Shown one piece after another: positions 13,479 to 31,201 of a stretch of DNA of 42,145 nt. Location: assembly GCA_944389435.1 (NCBI GenBank), contig CALXMI010000037.1:1-42145 (forward strand), written 5' to 3'. A model generated the notes under the pieces. It saw nothing but the letters and a program-made list of their open reading frames with translations, was not told where the DNA came from and searched no databases. Position numbers and translations under genes: made by a program. The stretch is from an uncultured Opitutales bacterium (GTDB lineage Bacteria; Verrucomicrobiota; Verrucomicrobiia; Opitutales; UBA9783). Numbering within the stretch: position 1 is the first letter of the stretch; each line of letters opens with the position of its first letter.

Positions 13479-14546
13479 TCAAATATAATTATTATCAAAC
13501 CGTTCCCAGTCAATGCCATGGTATAAGAATGTATCCAATGCCGCTCTTTCTTTAAGAAAAGTCGACGGAATCTCATCAATTATGTGCTTTAATATTTCTT
13601 TGTCTTGATTGAATTCATACTTCAAACATAAATTCAACCATTTTTCGGAAACTTGAACACAATCATTATATTTCACTAATGCAGAATTAGCTTCATCGGT
13701 AAGTGCAATTTCCCATTTCTCTATTATATATTCCATAGATGTTTTTATCATACACCTGTGTTCGTAAAGCTTCTTGGCAGCGCTCGTTAATCCTCTGAAC
13801 CAATCACAAAATTTATCTCCGTTAATCTCGGTTTGAAGAACTTCTTTAAAAGCGTCCAAACAAGCAATACCCATATAATGATAGTGGTGGTAACCATAAT
13901 CTCCTATTTCTTTTGGATGATGAATAATACATATCTTACCATCTAATTCTTTCCTAATTTTCAAATATGATTCAAAGGCACAATTATCCGGTTTATAGGT
14001 AGGATTCAGTTTCATTGCTGTGGCAGGATATTGAAAATTTATAGACAGTTCCATACCACGAAACGGTCTGTCTAAATAGTATTTTTTTATGTCTTCTATC
14101 GTGGCTTCTATATGTGAATAATCAATACATATGGTACGAAAGCCTCTTTCTGCAAGCCCCACAGAAATCAACTGCCCTTTACTATCGTCAAATCCGTAAA
14201 ATAGAACCTCATGATAATGATCTTCATTTATATATGGCTTAATATACATTATAATATAATATCCGCTTTTTAAGTTATCCTTTAAAGTATCTACTATATT
14301 GGGACTATTCATATCAAAGACTTTCAAAGGTTTTCTTTGCAAAATTTCTTCATGATATGACGGCGGATACATATTCATTTCTCCAAAATGAAAATTTCCG
14401 GCATCCGAATATAAATTATAATGTGAAGCTATCCAGTCCCTGTAATATTGCGATGTTTTTATAATAGCCAATCTATTGTATATCCAGCAATCTGTTACGG
14501 AATCAACATCTTCTATATGTATGGGTAGCTTTAATATCTCTTTCAT
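13479..14546 (-). CDS. BtrH/C39-like putative cysteine peptidase or acyltransferase
   Basis: A protein of 355 residues starting after AAAGGACAG. The N-terminal part has DCW (C20) and, about 90 residues on, YHEVLFYGFDD (H112). This spacing and the 'YYIIMYI...H..LFYGFDD' strand pair recall BtrH_N/papain-like folds in peptide and antibiotic clusters. The C-terminal 180 residues are helical and unrecognised. It has the same orientation as cluster 1 but is separated from it by about 0.9 kb of decayed sequence. Membership in the pathway, for example in leader removal or acyl transfer, is inferred; the catalytic pair is a guess from spacing. Confidence 0.72.
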   Translation of the reverse strand: MKEILKLPIHIEDVDSVTDCWIYNRLAIIKTSQYYRDWIASHYNLYSDAGNFHFGEMNMYPPSYHEEILQRKPLKVFDMNSPNIVDTLKDNLKSGYYIIMYIKPYINEDHYHEVLFYGFDDSKGQLISVGLAERGFRTICIDYSHIEATIEDIKKYYLDRPFRGMELSINFQYPATAMKLNPTYKPDNCAFESYLKIRKELDGKICIIHHPKEIGDYGYHHYHYMGIACLDAFKEVLQTEINGDKFCDWFRGLTSAAKKLYEHRCMIKTSMEYIIEKWEIALTDEANSALVKYNDCVQVSEKWLNLCLKYEFNQDKEILKHIIDEIPSTFLKERAALDTFLYHGIDWERFDNNYI

Positions 14547-14899: not shown

Positions 14900-15100
14900 T
14901 TAGTAAGTGCGAAATATTTTATTATTTTCTCCAAAAGTGAAATTGTATAATTTCGCATCTACAAAAAGACTGTAATGCGAAGCTATCCAATCTCTATAAT
15001 AGGGCGAATTTTTAGCTATAGTCAATCTGTTATATGTCCAACATTCTGTAACAGATTCTATATCATCAAATTTTAACGGCAACTCAAATGGATTAATCAC
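14900..15100 (-). pseudogene. Truncated paralogue of the BtrH-like gene
   Basis: A GTG at 15100 follows AAAGGAG. About 50 codons then match the start of the gene at 13479-14546: 'DIESVTECWTYNRLTIAKNSPYYRDWIASHYSLF' corresponds to 'DVDSVTDCWIYNRLAIIKTSQYYRDWIASHYNLY', including the CW pair. Similarity stops after FGEN and the frame soon ends, so only the N-terminal sixth of the protein remains. This is a decayed duplicate. Confidence 0.8.
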
Positions 15101-15464
15101 TATAAAACTCCTTTGTTGATAAAAATAAATCCGACATGCAAATGTATTGGTTTGAGACTTCTGGAACATAGTAATTTTTTACAAAGAAAAGCTCTCTTGC
15201 TGTTTTATTGACAAATATTTCTGCGGGATACGTTTTAAGCTAGAAATGTTTGCTGTTTTCTCCAAAGGCGACTTATATAATTTTTTATCTGCATATTCTG
15301 TAACGATTTATTCGTTGCTCATGCTTATTTGTGATTGTTGTTTATTTGTTATTTATAGCATCCTAAAATACAACTATTGTCAACATGCTGCCTATGTATA
15401 GCTCAACATGTCTTGAATACAGATGGCAATCATATTTTTATATCGAAGTGAGTACATATCCTCA
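15101..15464. other. Decayed region downstream of cluster 1
   Basis: Apart from the 15249-15311 fragment there is a short minus-strand open stretch at about 15105-15230 (coding for KTARELFF and NYYVPEVSNQ) that reads like the remnant of a protein, without a start. The plus-strand frame at 15385-15777 is antisense to the DUF2000 gene and has no ribosome site. Confidence 0.5.
15249..15311 (-). pseudogene. Second, internally deleted fragment of the BtrH-like gene
   Basis: The plus-strand stretch TTTTCTCCAAAGGCGACTTA and the following bases to about 15292 match the FGEN region of the fragment at 14900-15100. The adjoining ATTCTGTAACGATT matches its start region (ATTCTGTAACAGATT near 15050). The middle is missing, so this is a third copy reduced by deletion. 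Confidence 0.6.
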
Positions 15465-15881
15465 TCACTTTAACAAACTAAATGATTTCGTGATTTGTTT
15501 AATTTGTAGTTCTTCACCAAATATTGCTATACCTATAGGATTAAGATCAAATAGACAACTTTCGGTAATTGTTTTTTTATATACATCAAATTTATTGTTC
15601 AACGCTTGCCCTTCTTCTGTGAATATAACTAAAACAATGTTGTTAGTTTCATTGGTTTTCTTTATCGTTGAACTCAATTTCAACATTTTACTTAGATTTG
15701 TTTTCAATACAATAACATTGCACCTGATTGCACTATGTATAAAATCTGTTTTATCACAAAGTAGGTGCGAATTGTAAATATCATCACAACACTTTGCTAA
15801 TTGCCCCATCAAAATAGACGCTATATTAGCCGACACTCCAGGAGAAAGTTTTTCATTTACAATAATTGCAACCCTATTCAC
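15465..15881 (-). CDS. DUF2000-like protein, last gene of cluster 1
   Basis: A protein of 138 residues. The opening 'RVAIIVNEKLSPGVSANIASILMGQL' follows the DUF2000 pattern (a hydrophobic strand, then 'NE.L..G..AN..A.L'), a small alpha/beta fold related to peptidyl-tRNA hydrolase II. I chose the GTG at 15881 because GGGAGG lies seven bases upstream; an in-frame ATG at 15908 has no site. It overlaps the preceding gene by 8 bases, so it belongs to the cluster 1 operon. Its reaction is unknown; one possibility is to act on an activated intermediate made by the two genes before it. Confidence 0.72.
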   Translation of the reverse strand: MNRVAIIVNEKLSPGVSANIASILMGQLAKCCDDIYNSHLLCDKTDFIHSAIRCNVIVLKTNLSKMLKLSSTIKKTNETNNIVLVIFTEEGQALNNKFDVYKKTITESCLFDLNPIGIAIFGEELQIKQITKSFSLLK

Positions 15882-16434
15882 AAAAACACCTCCCTGATTT
15901 ATTTGCAAAACATACCCAAGGCATTATTACGCTATTTCTTAATATAGCTATAATATTCAATCCAAAATGCTCTGCACATAGTTTATTTGTTATTGATATG
16001 CAATTTGCATCTTCGTCCTGAATAAGTTCCTTACAGGCTTCTATGTTCGAATTAACATAAACAACATCTAAATTATCAACTTGTATATTTATTTCTCTTA
16101 ATAACGAATTGGTTGCTTGATGAAGATAGATTTTATCTGTTTTATGTAAATTTATGTTAGTGTTTTTGCTAACACAAACCAGAGGAGGAAGAGACTCTAA
16201 GAAAACTTCTGTGGCAATTAATTTGTTATCCATAATAAACTCGCTTATATTTGAGTATGCTGCAGGAACCAATATGCAAGAAAGTTCTTTTCTTTTCAAA
16301 GCGTCGGCAGCCGCCTCAAAAGAGTGATATGGTATAATCTCGGAATTGACATTCCATCTTCTTGCTATATACATGGAACAAGTCAAAGAACCAGAAGAGT
16401 CTCCTAGTGTACCAACTTTACATTTACGGGTCAT
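15874..16434 (-). CDS. Prephenate-dehydratase-like / type 2 periplasmic-binding-fold protein
   Basis: A protein of 186 residues. The start 'KVGTLGDSSGSLTCSMYIAR' followed by 'FEAAADALKRKELSCILVPAAY' resembles the first half of prephenate dehydratase (GPxGSFS ... A...G..D..V.P.EN). The usual catalytic Thr-Arg-Phe segment is not seen, so dehydratase activity is doubtful. The ATG at 16434 has GGAGG upstream and overlaps the preceding stop (ATGA). It may bind or remodel an amino-acid-derived substrate in cluster 1. It could equally be a binding protein without catalysis. Confidence 0.65.
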   Translation of the reverse strand: MTRKCKVGTLGDSSGSLTCSMYIARRWNVNSEIIPYHSFEAAADALKRKELSCILVPAAYSNISEFIMDNKLIATEVFLESLPPLVCVSKNTNINLHKTDKIYLHQATNSLLREINIQVDNLDVVYVNSNIEACKELIQDEDANCISITNKLCAEHFGLNIIAILRNSVIMPWVCFANKSGRCFCE

Positions 16435-17138
16435 TTTGCATCCTCCGTGAAACTGTTTATACAAGCTCTTCGTTCATTTGTTATAGTCAAATTATATTGT
16501 ATAGGGCTATCAAAACAATCCGCATCAACCAATGTTGTGTGAAACTCACCATTTTCACCGAATGGATCTATTCCGATAGATTTAAAGTGCTGATATGCTA
16601 ATCGATCATATTTTTCCCCAAGCCACTTTGTATCTATGGATGGATGGTTAATTGTAGTAATTATACTTTTAATTTTTCTGTTTTCTAGTTCCGTTATCAA
16701 ATCGTCATACGGAACTAGATACAAAGGGAAACATGGAATCATGCCGGCACTCTTACATAATTTGACTTGTATTATTATATTATCTAATGAATTCAAGTCA
16801 CCAAAAACGACATATTTTACTCCTTGCCGGCAGAAATCTCTGTATAACTTCGTGATTTTATCCCAACGCACCCACCATTTGTAATTAACATATATTATTG
16901 GGATGCGAAGTTTTTGAGCTTGTATATCTATTAAGCTTTGTTTTTGCTCATGAAACAACGATTCATTTTTATCGCTATCTAAACAATGGATTAAACTAAC
17001 AGCTTTACCAACCTCTAATGCTTTGGAAAGAGCAAGGCCAGAATCTTTTCCTCCACTGTACATAAAAACGAACGATTCATTTGTCGGTAAATTTCTATAT
17101 GATAAAAGATTTTCTTTATCAATGACAGTATAGTTCAA
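16431..17138 (-). CDS. Dph6-like N-type ATP pyrophosphatase (ATP_bind_4)
   Basis: A protein of 235 residues with the PP-loop SGGKDS at 28-33 and, near residue 196, GENGEFHTTLVDA. Both are hallmarks of the diphthine-ammonia ligase (Dph6/ATP_bind_4) family. Known members adenylate a carboxylate and form an amide. Bacteria lack diphthamide, so a biosynthetic use in cluster 1 is likely: amidation of the peptide or of a small adduct. The start is TTG at 17138 with AGAGGTG upstream. It is coupled to the next gene by ATGA. Confidence 0.85.
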   Translation of the reverse strand: MNYTVIDKENLLSYRNLPTNESFVFMYSGGKDSGLALSKALEVGKAVSLIHCLDSDKNESLFHEQKQSLIDIQAQKLRIPIIYVNYKWWVRWDKITKLYRDFCRQGVKYVVFGDLNSLDNIIIQVKLCKSAGMIPCFPLYLVPYDDLITELENRKIKSIITTINHPSIDTKWLGEKYDRLAYQHFKSIGIDPFGENGEFHTTLVDADCFDSPIQYNLTITNERRACINSFTEDAK

Positions 17139-17166: not shown

Positions 17167-18945
17167 TTATCTATAATTCTCTGCTTGCTTACTAAACATC
17201 TCATAGTATTTGCCTCGTAGAGAGATCAACTCATCATGTGTGCCAACTTCTTTGACCCCCCCATCACCTATCAAATAAATTCTATCAGCGTTTCTAATAG
17301 TAGAAAGGCGGTGTGCAATGATAATAGTTGTCGATAAATTGCTACTGTCGAAAATAAGTTTTGTCATCTCATATTCTGCAATGGGATCCAATGCAGCTGA
17401 AGGCTCATCAAATATTAATAGTCCAAAATCCCCAGATAAAAGTCTTGCGATCCCAATCTTTTGAATTTCTCCTCCGGATAACATAATTCCGCCTTCATCA
17501 AATTCTTTCGTTACATTAGTGTGAATGCTTGCATTGTTTTTGATTAAAACATTTTTAAGATCCGCTCGCATTATAATATCGTGAACTTTTTTTTCGTCGG
17601 AATTATCATATATACACAGATTATCGGCAAAGGACATTGCATAAACATTTGTGTTTTGAAAAGCTACACCTATTCTTCGTCTCAAATCATTTATATCGTA
17701 GTTACGTATATCAACATCATTTATACATATGCTTCCTTTGTTAACATCATAAAACCGCATTAATAACTTAACTATTGTTGATTTTCCTACTCCATTTTCA
17801 CCTACTATAGCAATTTTTTCACCAGGATTGATTTTTAAATTTAAGTGATTTATTCGGAAATTTGAATTTTGATAATTAAAGGAGATATTGTTAAACGAAA
17901 TTTTAAATGCGCCCGTTGGAGCCATAATACCGGCATTTTTTTCTGTTTCTATGTAAGATTTCAGGTCGAAAAAATTTTTAATTCTTTTCGCATACATACT
18001 TAGACGATTTGCGTCTTTAACATAATAAAACATTTCATTTAACGCATTTTTTAAAGTTTCTACTGCTACCATCATAGTTATGTAAGAACCCACTGTTGCA
18101 ATATTTCCGGTATAAATACCATGCGCAATATTTAGAATAACGAATGTTCGCGCAATGTAAAACGTGAAGGTTCCTGTCAAAGCCCACGGAATCATTTTAA
18201 AAGCGAATTTCTTTATAACATTGATTTTCCCATCTTGGGCAGCATTGTATCCTGCGAACAGATAATCTTTTATATTGGTGCTTTTTAAATCTGCGGCATA
18301 GTTATTAGTATAGAAAACTCTATGATAATAATTCAGTTTTCTATCATATGGAATTATCTCCGTATCTTTTTTCACATCATAATAGTTTGTTAATATATGC
18401 ATTATATTCTCAACGATAGTCCCGATTATGGTGACAATCACAGCGATGGGACTTAATGTCGCAATAATAGAAAGCATTGAGATAATGGTTATAATGGAAG
18501 ACACCATTCGATTAACCATGTTTTGAGCATCGGCAGCTTTGGTTGCATACTCACTAACGGCCCATGTGTAACTATCGAAATACTCTGGATCATCAATATA
18601 TCTGTAATCCGTATTTATTGCCTTACGATAAGCGTTAAATTTCAACTGTGCATCAATCTGTGGTAACATTCTATTTTTGCAGAACATATTAAAAATATCT
18701 TCATAAACGGGCTGAAACATCAAAATTAACTGCATTAATATCACAATTAAACATATATCTTTAAAGGAATATCCCCCCTGTAACATATTGATAATTGTGC
18801 TCGGTAGATAGACCCCCACTAATTGAGCAATAGGTATTATTATTCCCCAAAAAAACAAAGAAAAAACTACAAACATTTTTCCATATTTCCAATATGGTTT
18901 GTATAGCCATGCTATATTCTTAATTGATTTAATTATTGTTTTCAC
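17167..18945 (-). CDS. ABC exporter (membrane plus ATPase) of cluster 1
   Basis: A protein of 592 residues. Hydrophobic segments lie at about 22-48, 60-75, 155-190 and 255-300, followed by an ATPase domain with Walker A GENGVGKST (about 380), signature LSGGEIQK, Walker B LLIFDEPSAALD and switch AHRLS. It is a full-length half-transporter, presumably a homodimer, without an N-terminal C39 peptidase, so it does not cleave a leader itself. The start is GTG at 18945 inside the end of the kinase gene, with AAGGA upstream. It probably exports the cluster 1 product. Confidence 0.92.
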   Translation of the reverse strand: MKTIIKSIKNIAWLYKPYWKYGKMFVVFSLFFWGIIIPIAQLVGVYLPSTIINMLQGGYSFKDICLIVILMQLILMFQPVYEDIFNMFCKNRMLPQIDAQLKFNAYRKAINTDYRYIDDPEYFDSYTWAVSEYATKAADAQNMVNRMVSSIITIISMLSIIATLSPIAVIVTIIGTIVENIMHILTNYYDVKKDTEIIPYDRKLNYYHRVFYTNNYAADLKSTNIKDYLFAGYNAAQDGKINVIKKFAFKMIPWALTGTFTFYIARTFVILNIAHGIYTGNIATVGSYITMMVAVETLKNALNEMFYYVKDANRLSMYAKRIKNFFDLKSYIETEKNAGIMAPTGAFKISFNNISFNYQNSNFRINHLNLKINPGEKIAIVGENGVGKSTIVKLLMRFYDVNKGSICINDVDIRNYDINDLRRRIGVAFQNTNVYAMSFADNLCIYDNSDEKKVHDIIMRADLKNVLIKNNASIHTNVTKEFDEGGIMLSGGEIQKIGIARLLSGDFGLLIFDEPSAALDPIAEYEMTKLIFDSSNLSTTIIIAHRLSTIRNADRIYLIGDGGVKEVGTHDELISLRGKYYEMFSKQAENYR

Positions 18946-19786
18946 TTTCTGTCATTCCTTGGTAAAATAAAAAATTAGTAATCGCTATAAAATTATTCGT
19001 ATTACGGTAAGCAACTTCATAAACTTTTGTGTTTTTTAGAAGATTGTTTATATCTTGAAATAGCGTACACATATCTTTAGAATGTCTTACATTATTGATA
19101 ATTGTTTTAAAAGCTTCACTTTTATCTAGTTTGCGTACGAAATCATTTTCGTTGTTGTACTTAGGCAATATTACTACGTCTATATTGTGCACACTAGGAC
19201 TTGTCTTTGGGGGATAATAAATTGTTCGCATTGTTTCTCCATCAAAAGTCTCACCCACCATATTGCTTTCCATCAATTGATCAACATTTTCTCTCACGGA
19301 AATAGGCATATTAAATCCGATATACTTACTTTTAGAAATATAAACGCAATCGTCGTCTATGTATTCTGCGTGCAAAACCAACGACAAATAGCTTGTTAAT
19401 GTTGTTTTACCGGATTTTCTTTCTCCTATCAATAAAATATTTTTATTGTTTAATCTCACACAAGAACCATGAATAATTGTACAATTCAAAATATTTGCAT
19501 ACCAATCTTCTAAAGCCCCAATTAATTGAAAAGCAAAGTGCTTGTCAATTGCATTGCAAAAAATACGATAGGGTGCTTTGTCGATGCATTTTTTGAAGGT
19601 GTTTCCAGAAACTATTTCTAACGCAATATCATTATCCGTGCTTTCATTTTTTGTATCTAAAAAAGTTTTTTTATAAGTGGAAAGCAAAGTTTCAAACAAA
19701 CCAACATTTTTCAAATAAAGGTTTTTGTCTATATGTAGTTTTAATGTAGTGTCATTAATGGTCCGCTTAAAATAAAGCACGATCAT
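18929..19786 (-). CDS. HPr-kinase-like peptide kinase of cluster 1
   Basis: A protein of 285 residues. An IIHGSCV segment (H106) is followed by a Walker A LIGERKSGKTTL (about 119-130) and YIDDDCVYI, the order seen in HprK C-terminal-like kinases. Such kinases occur in RiPP clusters beside PqqD-like proteins; in paeninodin-type lasso clusters they phosphorylate the C-terminal serine of the precursor. The precursor at 21536-21640 ends in serine, so it is a plausible substrate (inference). Its ATG is preceded by AAGGAG. It overlaps the ABC gene by 17 bases. Confidence 0.82.
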   Translation of the reverse strand: MIVLYFKRTINDTTLKLHIDKNLYLKNVGLFETLLSTYKKTFLDTKNESTDNDIALEIVSGNTFKKCIDKAPYRIFCNAIDKHFAFQLIGALEDWYANILNCTIIHGSCVRLNNKNILLIGERKSGKTTLTSYLSLVLHAEYIDDDCVYISKSKYIGFNMPISVRENVDQLMESNMVGETFDGETMRTIYYPPKTSPSVHNIDVVILPKYNNENDFVRKLDKSEAFKTIINNVRHSKDMCTLFQDINNLLKNTKVYEVAYRNTNNFIAITNFLFYQGMTESENNN

Positions 19787-19798
19787 TCTCCTTATCTT

Positions 19799-20098
19799 TT
19801 AAACGTATTCTTTGATTAGTTCTTCGCAACAGAACTCTTTCAAAATTTTATTTACATCATCAAGCAAGCTTATATTTGTTTTTTGCGGTGCATATGTGGA
19901 TATAATTTTTTCACAAATATATTGGCTGCTGATATCTAAATTTTGTTCATTTGCCTCATTAAGAATATTCCAAATAAAAGAAGCGGATTGATTTAAAGAA
20001 ATTATACGCTTGCGTTGCTTGTCGTATGCAACAATCTCGTTCTCTATATTTTCTATTTCAAGTTTCGTTAATATCATTTCTTTGCCGTTAATTTTCAT
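19799..20098 (-). CDS. PqqD-like RiPP recognition protein
   Basis: A protein of 99 residues with the PqqD layout: a beta hairpin 'EIVAYDKQRKRIISLNQSASFIW' (D24, N36 and W43 in typical places) followed by helices. PqqD domains bind leader peptides and bring them to radical SAM enzymes. It lies between the SPASM enzyme and the kinase, with TAGGAG before its ATG. It is expected to bind the leader of the 34-residue precursor. Confidence 0.85.
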   Translation of the reverse strand: MKINGKEMILTKLEIENIENEIVAYDKQRKRIISLNQSASFIWNILNEANEQNLDISSQYICEKIISTYAPQKTNISLLDDVNKILKEFCCEELIKEYV

Positions 20099-20108
20099 AA
20101 TTATACTC

Positions 20109-21461
20109 CTAATTGCTTGTTAATTTATAAACAGAATTTTTTCCAAAAAGAACGTTGTCGACTAATTCAGCTTTCCAACCAAAGCATGTATTTCCACAAA
20201 GAATCTCGGTAAATACATACGACCAGTACTTTCGAATTAATTGACACTCATAATCCCTGTATTTTGTATCAAAGGCATTGTCTCTCACAACCTTTAGCGG
20301 ACAGCCGCCTTTGCAAAAACGATACGCTATACATCCTCTGCACTCATCAAAAGAATTCTTCACCACATCTAAATGTTGATCGGTATAGCTGTTATAAAAA
20401 TCCACCATATTGTCTTTTATTTCGGCAACGATGGTTTTGAACTGCTCGGCCTCAATACAGTTGATAATTTTTCTATCTGGCATCAGCCAAAAACATTCTG
20501 CAAATGTAGCTCCGCAACAGTATTCTGCAATAGTATTATTAAATATCGGTGTAGAAATATATAACTTGTAATTCTTTTCCTTTGCGTAGTTATGTAAGTT
20601 CACATAATGGTGAAAGAAATCGTATTTTTCTATGTTGTATTGATCTTTGTTGCCGTTTTTTAATGCACGCCCAGACGGAATTATTGGCATAATGCTCCAC
20701 TCGTTTATACCAGAACTGTTGTTTGCAATGTTATCACAAATTTGCTTGAGGTTTTCAAAGTTTTCATACCAAACAGTTGATCTTACCGTTAGTGAGCGTC
20801 CGCTTTGGCTAAAGTCTTGAAGAGTTTTTTCGACGACTGGAGATGAATTTGTTGTGTCAGAACATTTTCTGTTTCTGTTTTGCAAAAAAGATGTTCCATC
20901 ATACGACAACATAATTTTGTCAAAATGTTTAATTATAAATTTTCTCTGAGAGTTATTAAGCATTCCATTTGTCGTTAATTCAAAATAATAAGGCACAGAG
21001 CAGTTATCACAAAGATTTTTTATGGCACGTATTGACTCTTTAAACAACTCCCAATTAAATGTAGGCTCACCACCTCCCGTGAAAAAGAATCGCAAAGGTT
21101 CAGAATCATCGTTCTTATCAATAAATTGATATATTTTCCTCTTTTTAATTGCTTCTTTAACAAAAACGAGAATATCTTTCACTGACAGTAAGTCCTGATT
21201 TCCGCTGGTTGAAGAATAACTACAGTAATTACACCTTAATTGACAATTGTATGTCAAACATATACCAATCAAATTTATTGGCTTGTTTTTGGCAGACATT
21301 TTTGTTTTATCTAATTTATCTAAACAACTTTTTAATTCTTCATAATTATCAGTTTTTCTACAAATAGTATTTATTTCGGTTATTACGCTTTGTGCTGCGT
21401 CTTTGGGATAAAATATCAGTCTTTCCGAGTCGAAAATATAATTGCCTATATAGTGGTACAT
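20109..21461 (-). CDS. Radical SAM/SPASM peptide maturase of cluster 1
   Basis: A protein of 450 residues. CQLRCNYC (C73, C77, C80) is the 4Fe-4S site and FFTGGGEPTF binds SAM. The C-terminal part is SPASM-like, with CCGATFAEC and CRGCIAYRFCKGGCP supplying ligands for auxiliary clusters. Enzymes of this type make thioether, C-C or similar crosslinks on peptides. The ATG at 21461 has GGAGGA ten bases before it and is preferred over 21509. The gene follows the precursor directly, so the likely substrate has the core CCPTGKTNS. The bond formed cannot be predicted; a cysteine thioether is one option. Confidence 0.92.
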   Translation of the reverse strand: MYHYIGNYIFDSERLIFYPKDAAQSVITEINTICRKTDNYEELKSCLDKLDKTKMSAKNKPINLIGICLTYNCQLRCNYCSYSSTSGNQDLLSVKDILVFVKEAIKKRKIYQFIDKNDDSEPLRFFFTGGGEPTFNWELFKESIRAIKNLCDNCSVPYYFELTTNGMLNNSQRKFIIKHFDKIMLSYDGTSFLQNRNRKCSDTTNSSPVVEKTLQDFSQSGRSLTVRSTVWYENFENLKQICDNIANNSSGINEWSIMPIIPSGRALKNGNKDQYNIEKYDFFHHYVNLHNYAKEKNYKLYISTPIFNNTIAEYCCGATFAECFWLMPDRKIINCIEAEQFKTIVAEIKDNMVDFYNSYTDQHLDVVKNSFDECRGCIAYRFCKGGCPLKVVRDNAFDTKYRDYECQLIRKYWSYVFTEILCGNTCFGWKAELVDNVLFGKNSVYKLTSN

Positions 21462-21535: not shown

Positions 21536-21640
21536 CTATGAGTTCGTCTTGCCGGTAGGACAACACGATGCAGCGCGAGCCTCAATAGCACGAAGTTCTT
21601 CTTCGTCATACACTACGATAGCAGGTGTTTCGTATACCAT
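21536..21640 (-). CDS. RiPP-like precursor peptide of cluster 1 (34 residues)
   Basis: The peptide opens MVYETPAIVVYDEEEL, has a helical middle (RAIEARAAS) and ends CCPTGKTNS. A strong ribosome site (GAGGAGGG) lies five bases before the ATG at 21640. It is the first gene after a near-consensus promoter and directly precedes the SPASM maturase, the usual precursor position. The acidic leader, the Ala-rich junction and a short core with paired cysteines support a modified peptide. It shares its pattern (P-x-[IV]-V, then EL, then an A-rich helix, S and C) with the second precursor at 22010. A C-terminal serine could be the kinase target. Confidence 0.85.
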   Translation of the reverse strand: MVYETPAIVVYDEEELRAIEARAASCCPTGKTNS

Positions 21641-21961
21641 AATTTCCCTCCTCTCTCATTCATTCTAATATGTTTTTGGTTCGCTAGAACTATTTACTGA
21701 GTTTAAACGATAAATAATACCGAGTTACAATCCATTAGCAAAATCCGTGCATTTTTAAAAACAATTGTAAGTTTGTTCCGTATCAGATTATAATATAACA
21801 GTTTATATTTGTCAATATTTCGTTTAGTGATTTTAAAAAATAAAATAAAAAAACGTCAAATTGTAGCCATTTTGTAGATAATCTCTTGATTTTTGATAGA
21901 ATAAATGTTATTATATTCAAAAAGCATCGTTTGGTTGTTTTAGGTTTTGCTTCTTAACATA
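21641..21961. other. Leader region and promoter of cluster 1, otherwise no gene
   Basis: From the promoter near 21800 to the precursor ATG there is an untranslated leader of about 140 bases, AT-rich, without a clear riboswitch fold or terminator. Between the promoter and the terminator at 21962 (about 21816-21961) I see no supported gene; the small frames there lack ribosome sites. Confidence 0.6.
21787..21815 (-). promoter_or_regulatory. Consensus sigma-A promoter of cluster 1
   Basis: On the minus strand, TTGACA (21815-21810) is followed by exactly 17 bases and then TATAAT (21792-21787), a perfect match to the vegetative consensus. It drives the precursor and the downstream enzymes. Such a strong promoter suggests constitutive transcription unless a repressor binds. 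Confidence 0.85.
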
Positions 21962-22009: not shown

Positions 22010-22120
22010 TTATCTGAAATCTCCGGCGAAACATTGTCCGGATCTTGCAGCTGCTTGAATATGTTTTGCCAACTCTTTGGCACTCAATTCTACAACCACA
22101 GGCTTAACCCATTTTTTCAA
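22010..22120 (-). CDS. Second RiPP-like precursor peptide (36 residues, TTG start)
   Basis: The peptide opens MKKWVKPVVVELSAKEL, has an AKHIQAAARSG middle and ends QCFAGDFR. The start is a TTG at 22120 that overlaps the stop of the regulator gene (TTGA), with AAGGGGGG seven bases upstream, so translation is coupled. It is followed at once by a terminator. The pattern 'W.KP.V..LSA.EL...I.A.A.SG.C' is typical of precursors handled by PqqD and radical SAM proteins. There is no enzyme gene downstream on this strand, so cluster 2, divergent on the other side of the regulator, is the likely maturation set. Cluster 1 enzymes are the alternative. Confidence 0.78.
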   Translation of the reverse strand: MKKWVKPVVVELSAKELAKHIQAAARSGQCFAGDFR

Positions 22121-23178
22121 CTAAATCCCCCCTTATCTTTATAATATTTTTCTAACATACCGCATAGGGTCTGAAAGTACTGTTTATTAATGCTGTAAAG
22201 AATGGTTCTCCCGCGATTTCGCGTCTTAAGCATACCAGCTTTTATCATTAAAGATAGATGGTAATAAGCATTTGTTCCAGTAAATCCGAATTCTTGCTCC
22301 AAATCTTTTATTGTTATTTCTTCTTTTTCATATATCAAGTTCAAAACCGAAACTCTGTTTGATTCAGAAATTGCGTTTCCGAAATTTTCAAGCTCTGGCA
22401 ATCTAAACTGAACAGTCAAATAATTGATATGTTCAATATAATCAATACCTAATAATATTACAACTTCATTTGAATAATAGTGTGTTTTAACACAATTCTT
22501 ATGATATAAGCAGAACGTGATGTAAATATCGTCAAAACAAGAAAAATCGCCTTTTTGATTTTTCGTTTGCATAAGTTGGTTTAAAACAATATCAAAATCA
22601 AAATTATCTTTAAGTTCACTCAATAATTTATGTTTTGCATCATACTTTTGAGATAACGCAAAACTTTTCTCCATCAACTCATATGACAGTTTGTGGATAA
22701 CCGTTTCAGGCTCTATAAAGAACGAATATAACGCACTTTTAATTTCACCGCTATATGTGGAATTTTTGATGAACTTATTAACATAGGTTATCGAGTCCTT
22801 ACATTTTATGACATCTTCTTCGCGAATATCCTTAAAGTAGAATCTAATAATATTCTCTTTTACCTTTTCGTGATTGGATAATTCTTCTTGCACCATAGAG
22901 AGATTATAATTTTCAAAAACAAAATGTGCTTTATATGGCTCGTAATAATATTTAGTTATTACATTCTTTTTGTCTTCTGTGAAATAGAAAAACAAAAGAA
23001 GCTCATCTGAAATCGGTGAAAATTCATTTAGTATTTTACTGTAATAGTCAGTATCTTCACTTGATTTACTATAGTTTATGAAATTTGTCAGACAATAATC
23101 CTTGTTAAAATTAAAAGCAAATAAGAAAAAAAGGTCGTATATAAAGCCGGGTTCATCAAGAAATTTAATATTTCTCAT
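22117..23178 (-). CDS. Winged-helix (ArsR-like C-terminal) regulator coupled to precursor 2
   Basis: A protein of 353 residues. The last 80 or so form a winged helix: ITIKDLEQEFGFTGTNAYYHL is the helix-turn-helix and TRNRGRTILYSI the wing. The first 260 residues are a large unrecognised helical domain, perhaps a ligand sensor. The ATG at 23178 has AAGGAGG eight bases upstream and is preferred over the GTG at 23181. It has a paralogue at 35873-36817 with the same layout. It is transcribed divergently from cluster 2 across a palindrome and is coupled to a precursor gene, so peptide-responsive autoregulation is plausible. Confidence 0.85.
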   Translation of the reverse strand: MRNIKFLDEPGFIYDLFFLFAFNFNKDYCLTNFINYSKSSEDTDYYSKILNEFSPISDELLLFFYFTEDKKNVITKYYYEPYKAHFVFENYNLSMVQEELSNHEKVKENIIRFYFKDIREEDVIKCKDSITYVNKFIKNSTYSGEIKSALYSFFIEPETVIHKLSYELMEKSFALSQKYDAKHKLLSELKDNFDFDIVLNQLMQTKNQKGDFSCFDDIYITFCLYHKNCVKTHYYSNEVVILLGIDYIEHINYLTVQFRLPELENFGNAISESNRVSVLNLIYEKEEITIKDLEQEFGFTGTNAYYHLSLMIKAGMLKTRNRGRTILYSINKQYFQTLCGMLEKYYKDKGGFS

Positions 23179-23203
23179 CACCGTATCCTCCTTAACTTCG
23201 TTA

Positions 23204-23859: not shown

Positions 23860-23898
23860 TCATTGGCAAATTATAAATCGCAAATCAGGGAGAATATT

Positions 23899-24708
23899 AT
23901 GTTAACGATAGCCATACACGCACCATTCCAAACAAGCTTTACCATAAAAACCAACTGCAAAGAGTTAGCAAATGCAATTGTGTTAAGGCACGGTAAATAT
24001 GCAACTAAAAGTACAACTCAATCAGATATTACAATTATCGCTGAAAAAGAACAATCAGGTTATAGCATATACTTTAACGGCAATTCTGTAAAAACAAATG
24101 CTCCCTTAAAAAAAATAGAAGACATTATGTATGACAACCGTAAATATGAAGAAACAATATTTGCCGTTCACGGCGGTGCTGTAGAATACAATAATGGCGC
24201 ATATCTTGTTGTTGCCTCCACTACAAGCGGAAAAACCACCCTTACATCATATCTAGTTTCAAACGGTTTTGGATATATTACTGATGATTGCATACTTCTT
24301 GACCGTGAAAGCTTTAAAATATATCCGTTTACAACTCCCCTGCATTTGCGCAAAGGCGGTTATAACGCTCTGAAAGCTTTAGGTTGTGCCCCTGAAAGCT
24401 ATGATTTTTTAGACTCGGTTTCCATTAAAAGATATGTTTATACGCCTAATAATTCTGTTTCAAAACCGCTGCCGCTTAAAAAAATATTTTTTATCACAAG
24501 AACGGAAGATACGAATATGATAGAAGAAATGAATACCACAGAAAAAATAACCGCTCTTCTCAAATCGCCTATTACTGAATATGAAATTGGCGGCAGTTAT
24601 CTTTCGTTTATTTCCAAACTGTCCGCTATTCCCTGCAAAAGGCTTTATTACAGCAATATGGATTTTGTCGCCGAGGTAATTAAATATGAACAACAATCTT
24701 ATAATTAA
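23899..24708 (+). CDS. HPr-kinase-like peptide kinase of cluster 2
   Basis: A protein of 269 residues. The order FAVHGGAVE (H91), then VVASTTSGKTTL (105-115), then YITDDCILLDRE matches the HPr-kinase-like protein of cluster 1, but the first glycine of the P-loop is alanine. The ATG at 23899 has AGGGAG upstream and is chosen over 23863. It overlaps the next gene by 23 bases, giving a kinase plus PqqD pair as in cluster 1. It may phosphorylate a precursor serine or threonine; Ser27 of precursor 2 is a candidate. Confidence 0.8.
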   Translation: MLTIAIHAPFQTSFTIKTNCKELANAIVLRHGKYATKSTTQSDITIIAEKEQSGYSIYFNGNSVKTNAPLKKIEDIMYDNRKYEETIFAVHGGAVEYNNGAYLVVASTTSGKTTLTSYLVSNGFGYITDDCILLDRESFKIYPFTTPLHLRKGGYNALKALGCAPESYDFLDSVSIKRYVYTPNNSVSKPLPLKKIFFITRTEDTNMIEEMNTTEKITALLKSPITEYEIGGSYLSFISKLSAIPCKRLYYSNMDFVAEVIKYEQQSYN

Positions 24709-25405
24709 AATTCTGCCTGCTGTTTTAAAAACCAAAGGACAGGCAGAACTCACTGTAACAGGGACGAGCATGGAACCGACTCTAATTGAAGGTGATTTGA
24801 TAACAATCATAAAGTGTGATAATTACACAATCGGCGATATTCTTGTTTTTGACTATAAAAACGAGGGGCTTCTGGTTCACAGATTACTAAAAACATCCAA
24901 CCGATACTTCTGTAAAGGCGATAATTCTTTTAGGCTTGAAGATATGCCTGCAGAAAACATTATTGGAAAAGTCACAGCTGTAAACGGAGTTCCAATTGCC
25001 GTTTGGCAAAAATGGAAAATGGATTTGTCTTATGCTGTCAATCGATCATTTGTTAAATCAAAATATGATATTACAAATACAATGCAGACAGATATATATA
25101 AACTGTATTCAGCCTTAATTTTAGGAAAAGAGGAAAACAAAATGAATTACAAGAAAACAGATAAAATGGACTTTATTCTTTCAGATGAAACTTCACTTGC
25201 CGTATTTGATCCGGAAAGCAACAATACATACTTTTTTGACGAAACCGGGATAGACATTCTAAATTGTCTTGACATCCCTTGTGATATTGAAATGCTTTTA
25301 GATATGCTTTGCAATATTTATTCAGCATCCCCTGAAGATATCAGGGCAGATGTTGAAGAATTCTTAGCAGATACAGTAACCAAAGGAATTGTTGAAATAG
25401 TATGA
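24686..25405 (+). CDS. S26 (SipW-like) signal-peptidase domain fused to a PqqD domain
   Basis: A protein of 239 residues. The first part is peptidase-like: VTGTSMEPTLIEGD (S28), GLLVHRLLK (H65) and FCKGDN (77-80). This is the Ser-His arrangement of SipW/SEC11-type enzymes. The last 90 residues are PqqD-like (LAVFDPESNNTYFFDETGIDIL). No clear membrane segment is present, unusual for S26 enzymes. An in-frame ATG at 25142, preceded by AAGAGGAAAAC, could give the PqqD domain alone. The fusion would let one protein bind and cut the leader (inference). It overlaps the radical SAM gene by ATGA. Confidence 0.82.
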   Translation: MNNNLIIKILPAVLKTKGQAELTVTGTSMEPTLIEGDLITIIKCDNYTIGDILVFDYKNEGLLVHRLLKTSNRYFCKGDNSFRLEDMPAENIIGKVTAVNGVPIAVWQKWKMDLSYAVNRSFVKSKYDITNTMQTDIYKLYSALILGKEENKMNYKKTDKMDFILSDETSLAVFDPESNNTYFFDETGIDILNCLDIPCDIEMLLDMLCNIYSASPEDIRADVEEFLADTVTKGIVEIV

Positions 25406-26448
25406 ACATTAAAACCGTTTATGTTGAAATAACTAATTTCTGCAACTTAAATTGTATCACTTGCTATAACCGATCGGGCTTAAACTGTCAAAGAACAGAA
25501 TTGTCATTTGAACAAATCGAGAATATTATCAAACTTTTTACGCCTTTAGGATTGAAAAGATTTTTATTATCAGGTGGAGAACCTACACTGCATTCCGAAT
25601 TTGACAAAATTCTTGATTTAATCGATAAATATCCAAAAATTAATTTTGGTATTGTTACTAACGGAACAAATCATAATAAAAAGCTATTAGAATGCCTTAA
25701 CTCAAGAGACAATTTAAAACTTCAGATAAGTCTTGACGGTTCCTGTGAAGAAATAAATTCCAAAACCCGCGGTATAGGCAATTTCAAAAAGACCTTAAGC
25801 TTTGCCAAACAAATACGCACCGCTCATAATATTCCTCTGCTTAAAATGGTCATATCACAAGGCAATTATGACGATGTAGAAAATTTCTGCAATTTAGCGA
25901 TTTCATTAGGCTTTACACCTGAACTTGCATTTATATACAAATCCGGAAACGGGTGTGACGAATGGGGCACTAAAGAGCTTACATCCATACAAAAATTAAA
26001 AATATTGAAACTTGTCGAGCGCATTAATAAAGAAAGAAATGCAGGTATATTTCTTCCAATCTGCACCACAAAATGTCCGTTAGCAGAAGGAATCAATGAA
26101 CTTTCTTTCTGTATTAAAGTAGACGGTTCAATTCAACCATGTCAATCCCTTTACAGTGAAAAATATACTGTCGGAAATGTTCTTTTCTTCGATAAAAAGC
26201 TATTTTTACAGAATATAAATAATATTTCCGATTTAGCAAGGCAGCGTTGTGAACAAGACTATGGCTGTGAAAAATGTATGCTGAATGACATTTGCGGCAG
26301 AGGATGCATGGCAGAAGCTGTAAATCTTCACGATAATCCATTTGCAAGTGACGGCAACTGCGAATATAGAAAACAACAATTTATTAACTTTAATCTAAAA
26401 GGAGGTATATCTGTACTTGAAAAAGAAGACAAAACATTCCACGCTTAG
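25402..26448 (+). CDS. Radical SAM/SPASM peptide maturase of cluster 2
   Basis: A protein of 348 residues. CNLNCITC (C14, C18, C21) is the 4Fe-4S site and LLSGGEPTL binds SAM. The C-terminal SPASM region has FCIKVDGSIQPCQSL and CEKCMLNDICGRGCMAE, then a last cysteine in GNCEYR. It follows the peptidase-PqqD fusion directly (ATGA overlap) and overlaps the first ABC gene by 32 bases. Substrate and bond type are unknown. Precursor 2 (a single Cys30) is the nearest candidate. Confidence 0.9.
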   Translation: MNIKTVYVEITNFCNLNCITCYNRSGLNCQRTELSFEQIENIIKLFTPLGLKRFLLSGGEPTLHSEFDKILDLIDKYPKINFGIVTNGTNHNKKLLECLNSRDNLKLQISLDGSCEEINSKTRGIGNFKKTLSFAKQIRTAHNIPLLKMVISQGNYDDVENFCNLAISLGFTPELAFIYKSGNGCDEWGTKELTSIQKLKILKLVERINKERNAGIFLPICTTKCPLAEGINELSFCIKVDGSIQPCQSLYSEKYTVGNVLFFDKKLFLQNINNISDLARQRCEQDYGCEKCMLNDICGRGCMAEAVNLHDNPFASDGNCEYRKQQFINFNLKGGISVLEKEDKTFHA

Positions 26449-28228
26449 CAACAATTTATACATACTGAAACAAATACATATTGCAAGCCGCGGAAGAATA
26501 TTTTTTGAACTTTCGAGTATTATACTAAACACCGTTTCAAATATACTACTTGATGTTTATATGTTCAAATATATTATTAATGGTATTCAAAAGGGCTTAG
26601 ATTTTAAAAGACTTGTCGGTTTTATCCTGATTATTACGGCGTTTCATATTTTCACCGCTACCGTTGTCGACTATTTTTGGGAAAAATTCGCACCTGTCTC
26701 GAATCAAAAAATATATAGCCATATTCAAAAAAACTTGTTCGAAAAGGCCTCGTCTGTCGAGTTTGCCTGCTTTGAAGACCCTGACTTTTACGATAAATAT
26801 GTTAAAGCAATAAGCGAAGCATACAATAGAACCAATGAGGTTCTAAGGTCGTTGTGCGACATTGTATATTTTATTTTTAACGCTTTTGCTACCTCGTTTA
26901 TCATATTTACAATTGATCCCGTGCTGATAGTATTCGCGCTGATACCCTTTATTGTAAGTATTCTGTTCGGGAAAAGGCTTAACAAAGTGCGATACAATTA
27001 CACTATGGAAATGCAGGAAAAATCCAGAAAACGCGACTATGTAAAAAGGGTGTTTTACCTTGCCGACTACGCAAAGGAAATGCGGCTCACGAATATAAAC
27101 AGGGTTATGTTCAAAAAATTTTACGAGGCGATAAAGGAGCTTAAGGGGGTTATTAAAAAGCACGGGCTTAAGGTTGCGTTATTGGATTATTTGTTCATAG
27201 CGGTTAATGATATTATCGTTTACCTCGGCGCTATTCTATATTCCGCCTATAAAACCCTTGTTTCAAAAACAATGCTTTACGGCGACTGCGTGGTTGTTAT
27301 AAACGGAATAAACAATGTCGCGTGGTCACTGCGCAATATGGCTGATGTTTTTATTCAGTTTCAGAATCACTCGCTTTATATCGACAATCTGCGCTATTTC
27401 CTTGAATACAAGCCCGCAATTTATGAAAACAGGGAGGGACTCGACCCGCCCGATACCTGCGCGCTCACCCTTAAAAACGTAAGCTTTAAATACGCAGGTC
27501 AGGAAGATTATTCCCTTAAAAATATTAATTTCACAATAAAGCAGGGCGAAAAAATCGCCTTGGTCGGTCACAACGGCGCGGGTAAAACCACCCTTGTTAA
27601 GCTGTTAATGCGGCTTTACGATGTGACCGAGGGCGAGATACAGCTAAACGGCAGACCGATAAAGGAATACAAGCTTAAAGGCTACCGTAATCTGTTCTCG
27701 GTTGTGTTTCAGGATTTCAAGGTCTTCGCCGTATCGGTTTTGGAAAATATTTTGCTTAAAGCAGATATTACTAAGGAAGAAAAAAATCGCGCGGTAAGCG
27801 GTATGAAGGACGCGGGTATTTATGACAAGGTAATGTCCCTTGAAAAGGGCTATGAAACCGTGCTTACAAAGGAATTTGACGAAAACGGAGCGGTGCTTTC
27901 GGGCGGAGAGACCCAGAAAATCGCTATATCAAGGGTGTTTGCAAGGGACTGCCCCATCGCGATTTTAGACGAGCCTTCAAGTGCGCTTGACCCGCTGGCG
28001 GAGTACGCCATGTACGAGGCTATGATGAATGCGTGCAGGGACAAGGCGGTAATCTTTATTTCCCACAGGCTTTCCTCCGCGGTTTTGGCGGACAGGGTTT
28101 ACCTTATGGAAAAGGGAGAAATAATTGAAAGCGGCACCCACCGAGAGCTGCTCGAAAAGGGCGGCAAATACGCCGATATGTGGAGCAAGCAGGCGGAAAA
28201 ATACCGTAAAAAGGAGGAAGATGTATGA
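26417..28228 (+). CDS. ABC half-transporter 1 of cluster 2
   Basis: A protein of 603 residues starting at TTG after AAAGGAGG. The membrane domain spans about residues 30-320 and the ATPase has Walker A GHNGAGKTT (about 383), signature LSGGETQK, Walker B IAILDEPSSALD and SHRLSS. No C39 peptidase domain is present. It forms an ATGA-coupled pair with the next gene, probably a heterodimeric exporter. By eye, GC content rises inside the gene near 27000. Confidence 0.92.
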   Translation: MKKKTKHSTLSNNLYILKQIHIASRGRIFFELSSIILNTVSNILLDVYMFKYIINGIQKGLDFKRLVGFILIITAFHIFTATVVDYFWEKFAPVSNQKIYSHIQKNLFEKASSVEFACFEDPDFYDKYVKAISEAYNRTNEVLRSLCDIVYFIFNAFATSFIIFTIDPVLIVFALIPFIVSILFGKRLNKVRYNYTMEMQEKSRKRDYVKRVFYLADYAKEMRLTNINRVMFKKFYEAIKELKGVIKKHGLKVALLDYLFIAVNDIIVYLGAILYSAYKTLVSKTMLYGDCVVVINGINNVAWSLRNMADVFIQFQNHSLYIDNLRYFLEYKPAIYENREGLDPPDTCALTLKNVSFKYAGQEDYSLKNINFTIKQGEKIALVGHNGAGKTTLVKLLMRLYDVTEGEIQLNGRPIKEYKLKGYRNLFSVVFQDFKVFAVSVLENILLKADITKEEKNRAVSGMKDAGIYDKVMSLEKGYETVLTKEFDENGAVLSGGETQKIAISRVFARDCPIAILDEPSSALDPLAEYAMYEAMMNACRDKAVIFISHRLSSAVLADRVYLMEKGEIIESGTHRELLEKGGKYADMWSKQAEKYRKKEEDV

Positions 28229-30000
28229 AAGAAAAGGGCAGCGTACTGTTTATGATTAAGCAAGCCGTAAAATATGTTCCCTCCTTCTGTCTCTTTACAG
28301 TTGCGGAGGGTGTTGTTTGGGGCTGTATACACTCCTTTACAAGTACGCTCTTTATAAAGGCGCTGTTTGACAGAATAGAAAGCGGCGTCCCCTATTCTGA
28401 AATACTCCTGCTTGTCCTTGCTATGGCGGTTTTTCTTATTTCAGCCTACATATTCCACGAATGGTACTGGCAGTTTATAGAGCCGAAAGCGCGGCAGGAG
28501 CTGCACAAAAAAATGCAGGAGCAGCTATACAAAAAAGCGGCTTCCATAGACCTTGCCTGCTATGACCGCCCCGACTTTTACAACGACTTTGTCTGGGCGA
28601 TTAACGAGGCGGACTCAAGAACAATCGCAATATGTGAGGACATAGGCAAAATAATAAACCGCCTTATCACATCGGCGGTTATAATAGGCGTTTTATTCAC
28701 GATAGATTTGTGGATTGTGGCGGCGGTGCTTTTTTCGGTTGTCTTCAGCGTAGTTTTGCAAAGACTTATTACAAAAATTTATTTTAAGCGCGACAACGAG
28801 CTTAAACCCTTTCAACGCAGGGCTGAATATATAAGCAGGGTTCACTATCTTGCGGACTATGCAAAGGAAATCCGAATGAGCGAAGCCGAGGACTTACTCT
28901 TAAAGAATTTTGACACGGCTGTAGGAAGCAATATTTCAATAACCAAGTCCTACGGCAATAAGCTGTTTTTTCTGAATCTTACAAGAACCACCTTTACCGC
29001 CGTAATGTTTGACGCGGTTATTACAATACTGCTACTTTATAAGATGATGATAGAAAAATCCGTAACTCTCGGCGGATTTGCCGCCACATTCAGCGCTATG
29101 TGGAAGCTTTTTTGGACGCTTAATAATCTTATGGATTATTTTGCAAAATTCAAGGAGCATAAGCTTTATGCTAACAAGTTCAGGGTGTTTCTTAATTACG
29201 AGCCAACCGTGTGCGATAAGGAGGGTTGTACCGAATTAACCGCCCCGTTTAAGACCCTTGAGCTTAAAAATGTCTCCTTTGCCTACCCTGAAGCCGAAAA
29301 AAACATAATAAACGGCATAAATATGACCGTAAAGGCGGGGCAAAAAATCGCCCTTGTTGGCTACAACGGTGCGGGCAAATCAACCCTTGTAAAACTGCTT
29401 TTAAGACTATATGATGTTTCAGGCGGCGATATTTTTATAAACGGCAAGAGCATTAAGGATTACACCCTTTGCTCCTACCGAAACAAATTCGGTACCGTTT
29501 TTCAGGATTTTCAGCTCTACGCCGCCGATATTGCCGAAAACGTCCTTACCGACGAATATTCCGAAGAAGACCAGTCCCGCGTACTTGAAGCCCTTAAAAA
29601 CAGCGGATTTGAAGAAAGGCTTTCTTCCCTTAAGGAGGGTATTCACACACCGCTTACAAAGGAATTTGACCAAAGCGGAATTAACCTTTCGGGCGGCGAG
29701 GCGCAAAAAGTCGCAATATCAAGGGTGTTTGCAAAGGACTGCGAGATAGTTATTTTAGACGAGCCCTCAAGCGCACTCGACCCTATGACCGAATACGAAT
29801 TAAACAATACTCTGATGACCGCCCTTGACAAAACGGTTATAATAATTTCCCACCGCCTTTCTACGACCCGTATGGCGGACGTTATCTATATGCTTGAAAA
29901 CGGCGAGATTATTGAACAGGGCAGTCACGACGAGCTTATGCAAACGGGCGGCAAATACGCCGAAATGTTTTTAAAGCAGGCGGAAAAATATAATTTTTAG
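28225..30000 (+). CDS. ABC half-transporter 2 of cluster 2
   Basis: A protein of 591 residues coupled by ATGA to the previous gene, with AAGGAGG upstream. It has an N-terminal membrane domain, Walker A GYNGAGKST (about 378), signature LSGGEAQK, Walker B IVILDEPSSALD and SHRLST. Both partners have an intact ATPase core. It is clearly related to its neighbour and to the cluster 1 exporter. Its base composition is GC-richer than that of the genes on either side. Confidence 0.92.
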   Translation: MKEKGSVLFMIKQAVKYVPSFCLFTVAEGVVWGCIHSFTSTLFIKALFDRIESGVPYSEILLLVLAMAVFLISAYIFHEWYWQFIEPKARQELHKKMQEQLYKKAASIDLACYDRPDFYNDFVWAINEADSRTIAICEDIGKIINRLITSAVIIGVLFTIDLWIVAAVLFSVVFSVVLQRLITKIYFKRDNELKPFQRRAEYISRVHYLADYAKEIRMSEAEDLLLKNFDTAVGSNISITKSYGNKLFFLNLTRTTFTAVMFDAVITILLLYKMMIEKSVTLGGFAATFSAMWKLFWTLNNLMDYFAKFKEHKLYANKFRVFLNYEPTVCDKEGCTELTAPFKTLELKNVSFAYPEAEKNIINGINMTVKAGQKIALVGYNGAGKSTLVKLLLRLYDVSGGDIFINGKSIKDYTLCSYRNKFGTVFQDFQLYAADIAENVLTDEYSEEDQSRVLEALKNSGFEERLSSLKEGIHTPLTKEFDQSGINLSGGEAQKVAISRVFAKDCEIVILDEPSSALDPMTEYELNNTLMTALDKTVIIISHRLSTTRMADVIYMLENGEIIEQGSHDELMQTGGKYAEMFLKQAEKYNF

Positions 30001-30013
30001 GAAGTGTACGAAT

Positions 30014-31201
30014 ATGGACAAGGAAAAAATTTTAGAAGTATTAGGAAATATCATTGATATAAATAAAGAACAGCTTTTAAAAACTTCAGTTGATACGAAA
30101 CTGACCGATTTGGGGCTTACTTCAATTCAATTCATTCAATTTATTGTGGCTATTGAGGAAGAATTTGAAATTGAAATTTTAGACAGCGATCTTATAATGA
30201 CAAATTTCGAAACGGTAGAAATGCTTTTCAGTACATTAGAAAAGTATTTCACCCCCAAAAGCACTTTAAAAAAAGTACTTATTTGTGATTGCGATAATGT
30301 ATTATGGTACGGCATTTCAGGCGAAGAAGAAATATACATAGATGCTATAATCCTGAAATTTCAAGAAACCTTAATAGAATTATACAACCGCGGAATACTT
30401 ATATGCCTTTGCAGTAAAAATGAGCCGGAAAATATAGAAACGGTATTTAACTCTCTTGAAATGCCGCTGAAAAAGAATCATATCTTAATATCAAAAATAA
30501 ATTTGACGGATAAAGCCACAAACATAAAAGAAATTGCTCTTGAATTAAATCTTTCTGCCGATAGCTTCGTTTTTGTTGACGACAGCAAATATGAGCTTGA
30601 CCTTGTATCTTCTATAATTCCCGATATTACAACCGTCCTTGCGGATTATTCTAATTGCGATTTTATAGAAAAAATCAAAGGATTTTTTGACGGGAGTTCT
30701 ACAGATATTAACCGTACACAACAGTACAGAGATCAAAAAGAACGTGAAAAAGAAAAGCAGCGTTATGCAAGCGCTGAAGAATTTAATGCATCGCTCAAGA
30801 CCGAGATAAAATGTGAAACGGCGTCACCTGCTCAAGCAGCACGAATATCTGAATTATCACAGCGAACCAATCAATTTAATCTTTCCGATGTAAGATATAC
30901 CGAAGAGGAAATTAATTATTTTATCAGGGATGAAGGATATTGCGTGTATGTCCTTTCCGCTTCAGATAAATACGGCGATATGGGATTGGTTGGTGCCGCG
31001 GTGGTACGCAAAACAGAAAATCCTGTCATTATAGGTTTTTTTCTTTCTTGTCGGGTCTTCGGAAGAGGTTTTGAAGAACATTTTCTAAATCAAATCAAAA
31101 GCAATTTTGCTGTTCCAATGTATGGTATTTATAAAAGAACAGATAAAAACAAGAGGTTTGAAGATTTTTACTCTAAAAATGGAGTTGAAATATATGAATA
31201 A
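30014..31201 (+). CDS. ACP-FkbH protein (HAD-IIIC glyceryl-ACP synthase-like)
   Basis: A protein of 395 residues. Residues 1-80 are an acyl carrier domain with the pantetheine serine in DLGLTSIQF (S37). Residues about 85-225 are a HAD domain with DCDNVLWYG (D92, D94) and VFVDDSKYE. The rest is a GNAT-like domain. FkbH proteins take a three-carbon unit from 1,3-bisphosphoglycerate and load it on an ACP as glyceryl-thioester. Here the ACP is fused in. No ketosynthase or condensation gene is nearby, so the glyceryl unit may be passed to the peptide (inference). It overlaps the next gene. Confidence 0.85.
   Translation: MDKEKILEVLGNIIDINKEQLLKTSVDTKLTDLGLTSIQFIQFIVAIEEEFEIEILDSDLIMTNFETVEMLFSTLEKYFTPKSTLKKVLICDCDNVLWYGISGEEEIYIDAIILKFQETLIELYNRGILICLCSKNEPENIETVFNSLEMPLKKNHILISKINLTDKATNIKEIALELNLSADSFVFVDDSKYELDLVSSIIPDITTVLADYSNCDFIEKIKGFFDGSSTDINRTQQYRDQKEREKEKQRYASAEEFNASLKTEIKCETASPAQAARISELSQRTNQFNLSDVRYTEEEINYFIRDEGYCVYVLSASDKYGDMGLVGAAVVRKTENPVIIGFFLSCRVFGRGFEEHFLNQIKSNFAVPMYGIYKRTDKNKRFEDFYSKNGVEIYE

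Follow-up and report, generated by a model that had tools for sequence, protein, structure and literature searches.

The minus strand of the window, i.e., the whole 42,145-nucleotide stretch analyzed herein, carries a radical SAM peptide operon that begins with a promoter and a short gene, pepB, and ends with a trio of genes. In their order on that strand, these three genes encode a Dph6-like PP-loop ATP pyrophosphatase of 235 aa (16431..17138), a BacA/TdaC-like protein of 186 aa belonging to Pfam PDT (15874..16434), and a DUF2000 protein of 138 aa (15465..15881), with matches to PF01902 (E 8e-27), PF00800 (E 8e-8), and PF09391 (E 3e-16), respectively. The PP-loop gene has TTG 17138 as its start codon, 28 nt downstream of the ABC exporter gene, and the starts of the other two genes were reset using Shine-Dalgarno positions: ATG 16434 for the BacA/TdaC-like gene, which shares 4 nt (ATGA) with the end of the PP-loop gene, and GTG 15881 for the DUF2000 gene, which overlaps the stop of the BacA/TdaC-like gene by 8 nt. 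Such overlaps are the usual appearance of translational coupling. An earlier note on this DNA had described three tightly coupled genes of these families, in this order, behind the exporter of a peptide operon; the Pfam matches and the overlaps bear out this description, with two starts corrected. Just downstream of the trio are an orphan gene for a 355-aa protein lacking a significant Pfam match (13479-14546), the structure model of which was set aside (pLDDT under 40), and a truncated duplicate of this orphan (14900-15169; 61% identity over 56 aa).

The genes preceding the trio are those of a radical SAM RiPP operon. The promoter (TTGACA-17-TATAAT; 21787..21815, minus strand) lies between a terminator and pepB and matches the sigma-70 consensus perfectly; it is the sole perfect match across the whole window, and 34 of 1500 simulated 7.8-kb regions contained one. 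The first gene 3′ of this promoter, pepB (21536..21640, minus strand), has a strong Shine-Dalgarno sequence and encodes a 34-aa peptide, MVYETPAIVVYDEEELRAIEARAASCCPTGKTNS, with a leader-like half and a tail containing two Cys, which the earlier note had overlooked. This peptide had no family match in databases and no relative on the plasmids searched, and it is therefore considered a putative precursor by position and form only. On the same strand follow a radical SAM/SPASM enzyme (20109..21461), a PqqD-like peptide recognition protein (19799..20098; PF05402, 26.1 bits, cutoff 23.4), an HprK-related kinase-like protein with a weak match (18929..19786; TIGR04352, 25 bits, cutoff 200), and an ABC exporter (17167..18945). 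No strong terminator was found on the minus strand from pepB through these genes and the trio, and an 8-pair terminator-like site within the BacA/TdaC-like gene (16408-16390) is of a kind equally common in shuffled sequence. The trio is probably cotranscribed with the precursor, radical SAM, and PqqD genes from one promoter. Neither an aminotransferase nor a second exporter was seen in the operon. The radical SAM enzyme is nearest to the PapB family, and PapB-type ranthipeptide operons likewise combine a radical SAM/SPASM enzyme, PqqD, an exporter, and a short Cys-containing precursor; by contrast, the window enzyme scores 86.8 bits against a PapB equivalog cutoff of 340, and no description of an accessory trio of this kind was found for such operons.

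A possible second peptide of 36 aa, pepA (22010..22120, minus strand), is coupled to the stop of a regulator gene, and this regulator–pepA unit is closed by the terminator at 21998-21965, upstream of the sigma-70 promoter. The leaders of pepA and pepB resemble each other weakly, with 590 of 20000 shuffles being equally good. The window contains two paralogous ArsR-like regulators (22117-23181 and 35873-36817; 32% identical), and a peptide ORF is coupled to the stop of the former only. Elsewhere in the window, a second cluster (23863-32247) comprises an HprK-like protein, an S24/S26-like peptidase fused to PqqD, a radical SAM enzyme, two ABC transporters, an ACP-containing protein, and a nucleotidyltransferase; no precursor was seen in it, and its NTP_transf_5 gene (31107-32247) is split over two frames, being either frameshifted or affected by a sequencing error. 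A large NACHT-domain ATPase encoded at 32271-35669 is possibly defense-related.

The T4CP, S1-domain, and neighboring genes of the window, among them conjugation and replication genes, match those of Oscillospiraceae plasmids (44% and 46% identity), and the other contigs of the MAG appear Verrucomicrobiota-like from their gene content. Because of these plasmid matches, the contig probably represents a conjugative plasmid from Oscillospiraceae that mis-binning has placed in a Verrucomicrobiota-like MAG, and the lack of other PDT genes in the MAG therefore says little regarding prephenate supply. Likewise, the window copies of DUF2000 and of a PDT-like relative of this type are the only ones among 387 genomes of the MAG's phylum, a rarity concerning a phylum that is probably not that of the true host.

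The PP-loop protein aligns with its relatives with both SGGKDS and GENGEFHT intact, the motifs of a Dph6-like PP-loop ATP pyrophosphatase, and its closest solved structures are N-type ATP pyrophosphatases. Dph6 forms a plain carboxamide on diphthine with ammonia. The window protein shares the PP-loop fold and both catalytic motifs with this diphthine-ammonia ligase but differs from it in being bacterial, in residing within a peptide operon, and in scoring 80 bits against the archaeal Dph6 equivalog cutoff of 197.3. The earlier suggestion of an adenylating, amide-forming enzyme is favored by the two motifs, which such an enzyme would be expected to have. Membership in the Dph6 family with intact motifs would also fit an enzyme that makes a plain peptide carboxamide from ammonia in the manner of Dph6, while the BacA/TdaC-like and DUF2000 proteins do an unrelated job; the low Dph6 score and the overlaps among all three genes, which suggest one pathway, render this explanation improbable. 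Plasmid matches to the PP-loop protein are all Dph6-like genes, and those inspected sit in unrelated settings. Within the MAG's phylum, its relatives are neighbors of B12-transport genes, as in several genomes (L004-L009) with Dph6-like PP-loop genes beside BtuCD-like or cobalamin genes.

The second protein of the trio had been described as prephenate-dehydratase-like. Its PF00800 match agrees with this description; however, it is a distant BacA/TdaC relative rather than a plain prephenate dehydratase. The protein scores 77.5 bits against a profile built from ten BacA/TdaC-type proteins, covering the nonaromatizing prephenate decarboxylase family and its kin, whereas the best of 400 control shuffles scores 2.6 bits and the window protein itself only 14.2 bits against the PheA profile; identity as plain PheA was rejected on these scores. 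In a tree with long branches, PheA is split from the window, Priestia, and BacA/TdaC proteins with support of 100/100. Furthermore, the TRF motif of PheA is replaced by an M-x-W-x-x-F type motif (MPWVCF in the window, MPWICF in Priestia, and MPWSVF in Pantoea), as in BacA relatives. The GTSSE and SHPAP motifs of BacA proper are lost, with GSLTCSM and LHQAT in their place; the protein is therefore named BacA/TdaC-like, not prephenate decarboxylase. What TdaC itself does is poorly understood (PMC7497051). A structure model was set aside (pLDDT under 40), and the BacA query sequence served solely as bait for retrieving real records. The lost motifs, together with weak Pfam matches of BacA itself to solute-binding proteins, which point to that fold, raise the prospect that the window protein has a binding or sensing role without catalysis and that the trio acts in immunity or regulation. 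This is highly improbable, as the window protein has five cysteines and the MPW.CF motif in common with its sole close plasmid relative, from Priestia aryabhattai (about 42% identity), and BacA-like and DUF2000 genes adjoin biosynthetic genes elsewhere.

The DUF2000 protein scores 59.9 bits against a Pfam gathering cutoff of 25, and a four-sequence DUF2000 profile matches PDB 2gax (E 8e-4); the fold is presumably PTH2-like. No paper naming DUF2000 was found in the literature searched. Its closest relative is likewise from Priestia (38% identity), and DUF2000 genes are also found without BacA-like genes nearby.

The BacA-like and DUF2000 genes recur as a pair. In 7 plasmid records from 4 genera, the distance between the two is at most about 3 kb, with records of the same genus not being independent; with 86 BacA-type and 53 DUF2000 records among 72,556, about 0.06 co-occurrences are expected if the two are independent. 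On Priestia aryabhattai p-LAD2 (NZ_CP072475.1, 2.1-7.0 kb), these closest relatives of the two window proteins are adjacent and in the same order, divergent from genes for an ATP-grasp enzyme that matches a solved L-amino acid ligase (E 1e-32), an MFS exporter, and an aminotransferase, which the window trio is not accompanied by; no PP-loop and no radical SAM peptide genes occur within the 18.6 kb read. P. aeruginosa pNY8709-IMP, Pantoea, and Photobacterium share a cluster (Dabb-DUF2000-AMP-binding-BCAT-BacA-like-CMD-OCD-LysE) in which the pair is also present, but with a different order, different partners, and divergent sequence (about 25% identity). Three further Pantoea pair records are known by gene positions. 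An attempt to connect the Pantoea cluster with Pantoea Natural Product 3 yielded no proof of such a connection. No PP-loop and no radical SAM peptide genes were seen near the other pair loci. The pair thus resides elsewhere in small-molecule clusters and is not RiPP-specific, which speaks in part against the interpretation in the earlier note.

The full trio had no second instance in genome, plasmid, or viral searches. Two scans of about 85,000 genomes, both requiring exact short motifs, yielded no relative of the pair or the trio, their lone match (L065) being a chance match, and nothing matching was found among the viral contigs searched.

The neighbors of the pair activate carboxylates, with an ATP-grasp ligase in Priestia and an AMP-binding enzyme in Pseudomonas, and BacA/TdaC relatives in general show similar company. 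They lie near L-amino-acid ligases in S. xylosus (E 5e-107) and Pseudoalteromonas, and near ATP-dependent carboxylate-activating enzymes in Streptomyces NBC_00464 and WZ-12, Pantoea, Pseudomonas, and Priestia; no ligase was seen near those of S. goshikiensis, S. scopuliridis, and Phaeobacter. Streptomyces BacA/TdaC relatives are accompanied by PhzF. Plasmids of S. xylosus and Pseudoalteromonas combine a TdaC-like gene with an ATP-grasp L-amino-acid ligase and DUF6421 (records L108 7716-9507, L109 1-1242, and L076 4004-7019). In bacilysin biosynthesis, the cupin BacB comes after BacA, and both act in tandem on prephenate (PMC9147277). The window resembles the BacA/BacB/BacD/BacF system in that a BacA-family relative adjoins a putative enzyme for a second step and an enzyme that activates carboxylates with ATP, and by analogy DUF2000 may hold a place like that of BacB after BacA. 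By contrast, the window has a ribosomal peptide operon, a PP-loop enzyme instead of ATP-grasp, DUF2000 instead of a cupin, and a BacA relative devoid of GTSSE and SHPAP.

Operon structure, gene overlaps, family placement, PP-loop motifs, and the recurrence of the pair are read directly from sequence. On this basis, the trio is tentatively interpreted, at somewhat less than an even chance, as a building-block-and-ligation module embedded in the radical SAM peptide operon. The BacA/TdaC-like and DUF2000 proteins would work one after the other on a small carboxylate, possibly prephenate or a related compound, with BacA-like chemistry first and isomerase-like or hydrolase-like catalysis by DUF2000 next; the PP-loop enzyme would adenylate a carboxylate and form an amide, either by attaching the small unit to the peptide or through amidation of the peptide itself. 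The substrate, the role of DUF2000, and the connection to the peptide are predictions, the roles being derived from homology and context and the peptide link from one operon. This interpretation is favored by a single promoter-to-DUF2000 operon with a precursor-like peptide at its start, by the gene overlaps, by the BacA/TdaC placement in profile and tree, by the recurrence of the pair beside carboxylate-activating partners, and by the tandem action of BacA and BacB, and it is countered by the PP-loop gene lacking a counterpart in the other pair loci, by the lost BacA motifs, by the absence of an aminotransferase from the operon, by BacA relatives that have no ligase, and by the poorly understood role of TdaC; with one locus and no second trio, confidence in it is limited.

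The small-molecule clusters in which the pair occurs elsewhere, with aminotransferase, ligase, and exporter and with no radical SAM peptide genes seen, also accord with a separate, bacilysin-like pathway leading to an amide or an unusual amino acid, for which operon and exporter would be shared while the peptide itself is left untouched. Probable cotranscription with the precursor, radical SAM, and PqqD genes from one promoter, and the lack of an aminotransferase or second exporter in the operon, leave this pathway unlikely. A specific hybrid, in which a shikimate-type, bacilysin-like block made by the BacA-like/DUF2000 pair would be joined by the PP-loop enzyme to a radical SAM-modified peptide, is rather unlikely. 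If correct, the building-block-and-ligation interpretation would link ribosomal radical SAM peptides with bacilysin-type small-molecule units, i.e., two chemistries of peptide antibiotics, and Dph6-like PP-loop enzymes would gain a tailoring role. Furthermore, DUF2000 would be offered a testable role as a recurring partner of BacA-like proteins.
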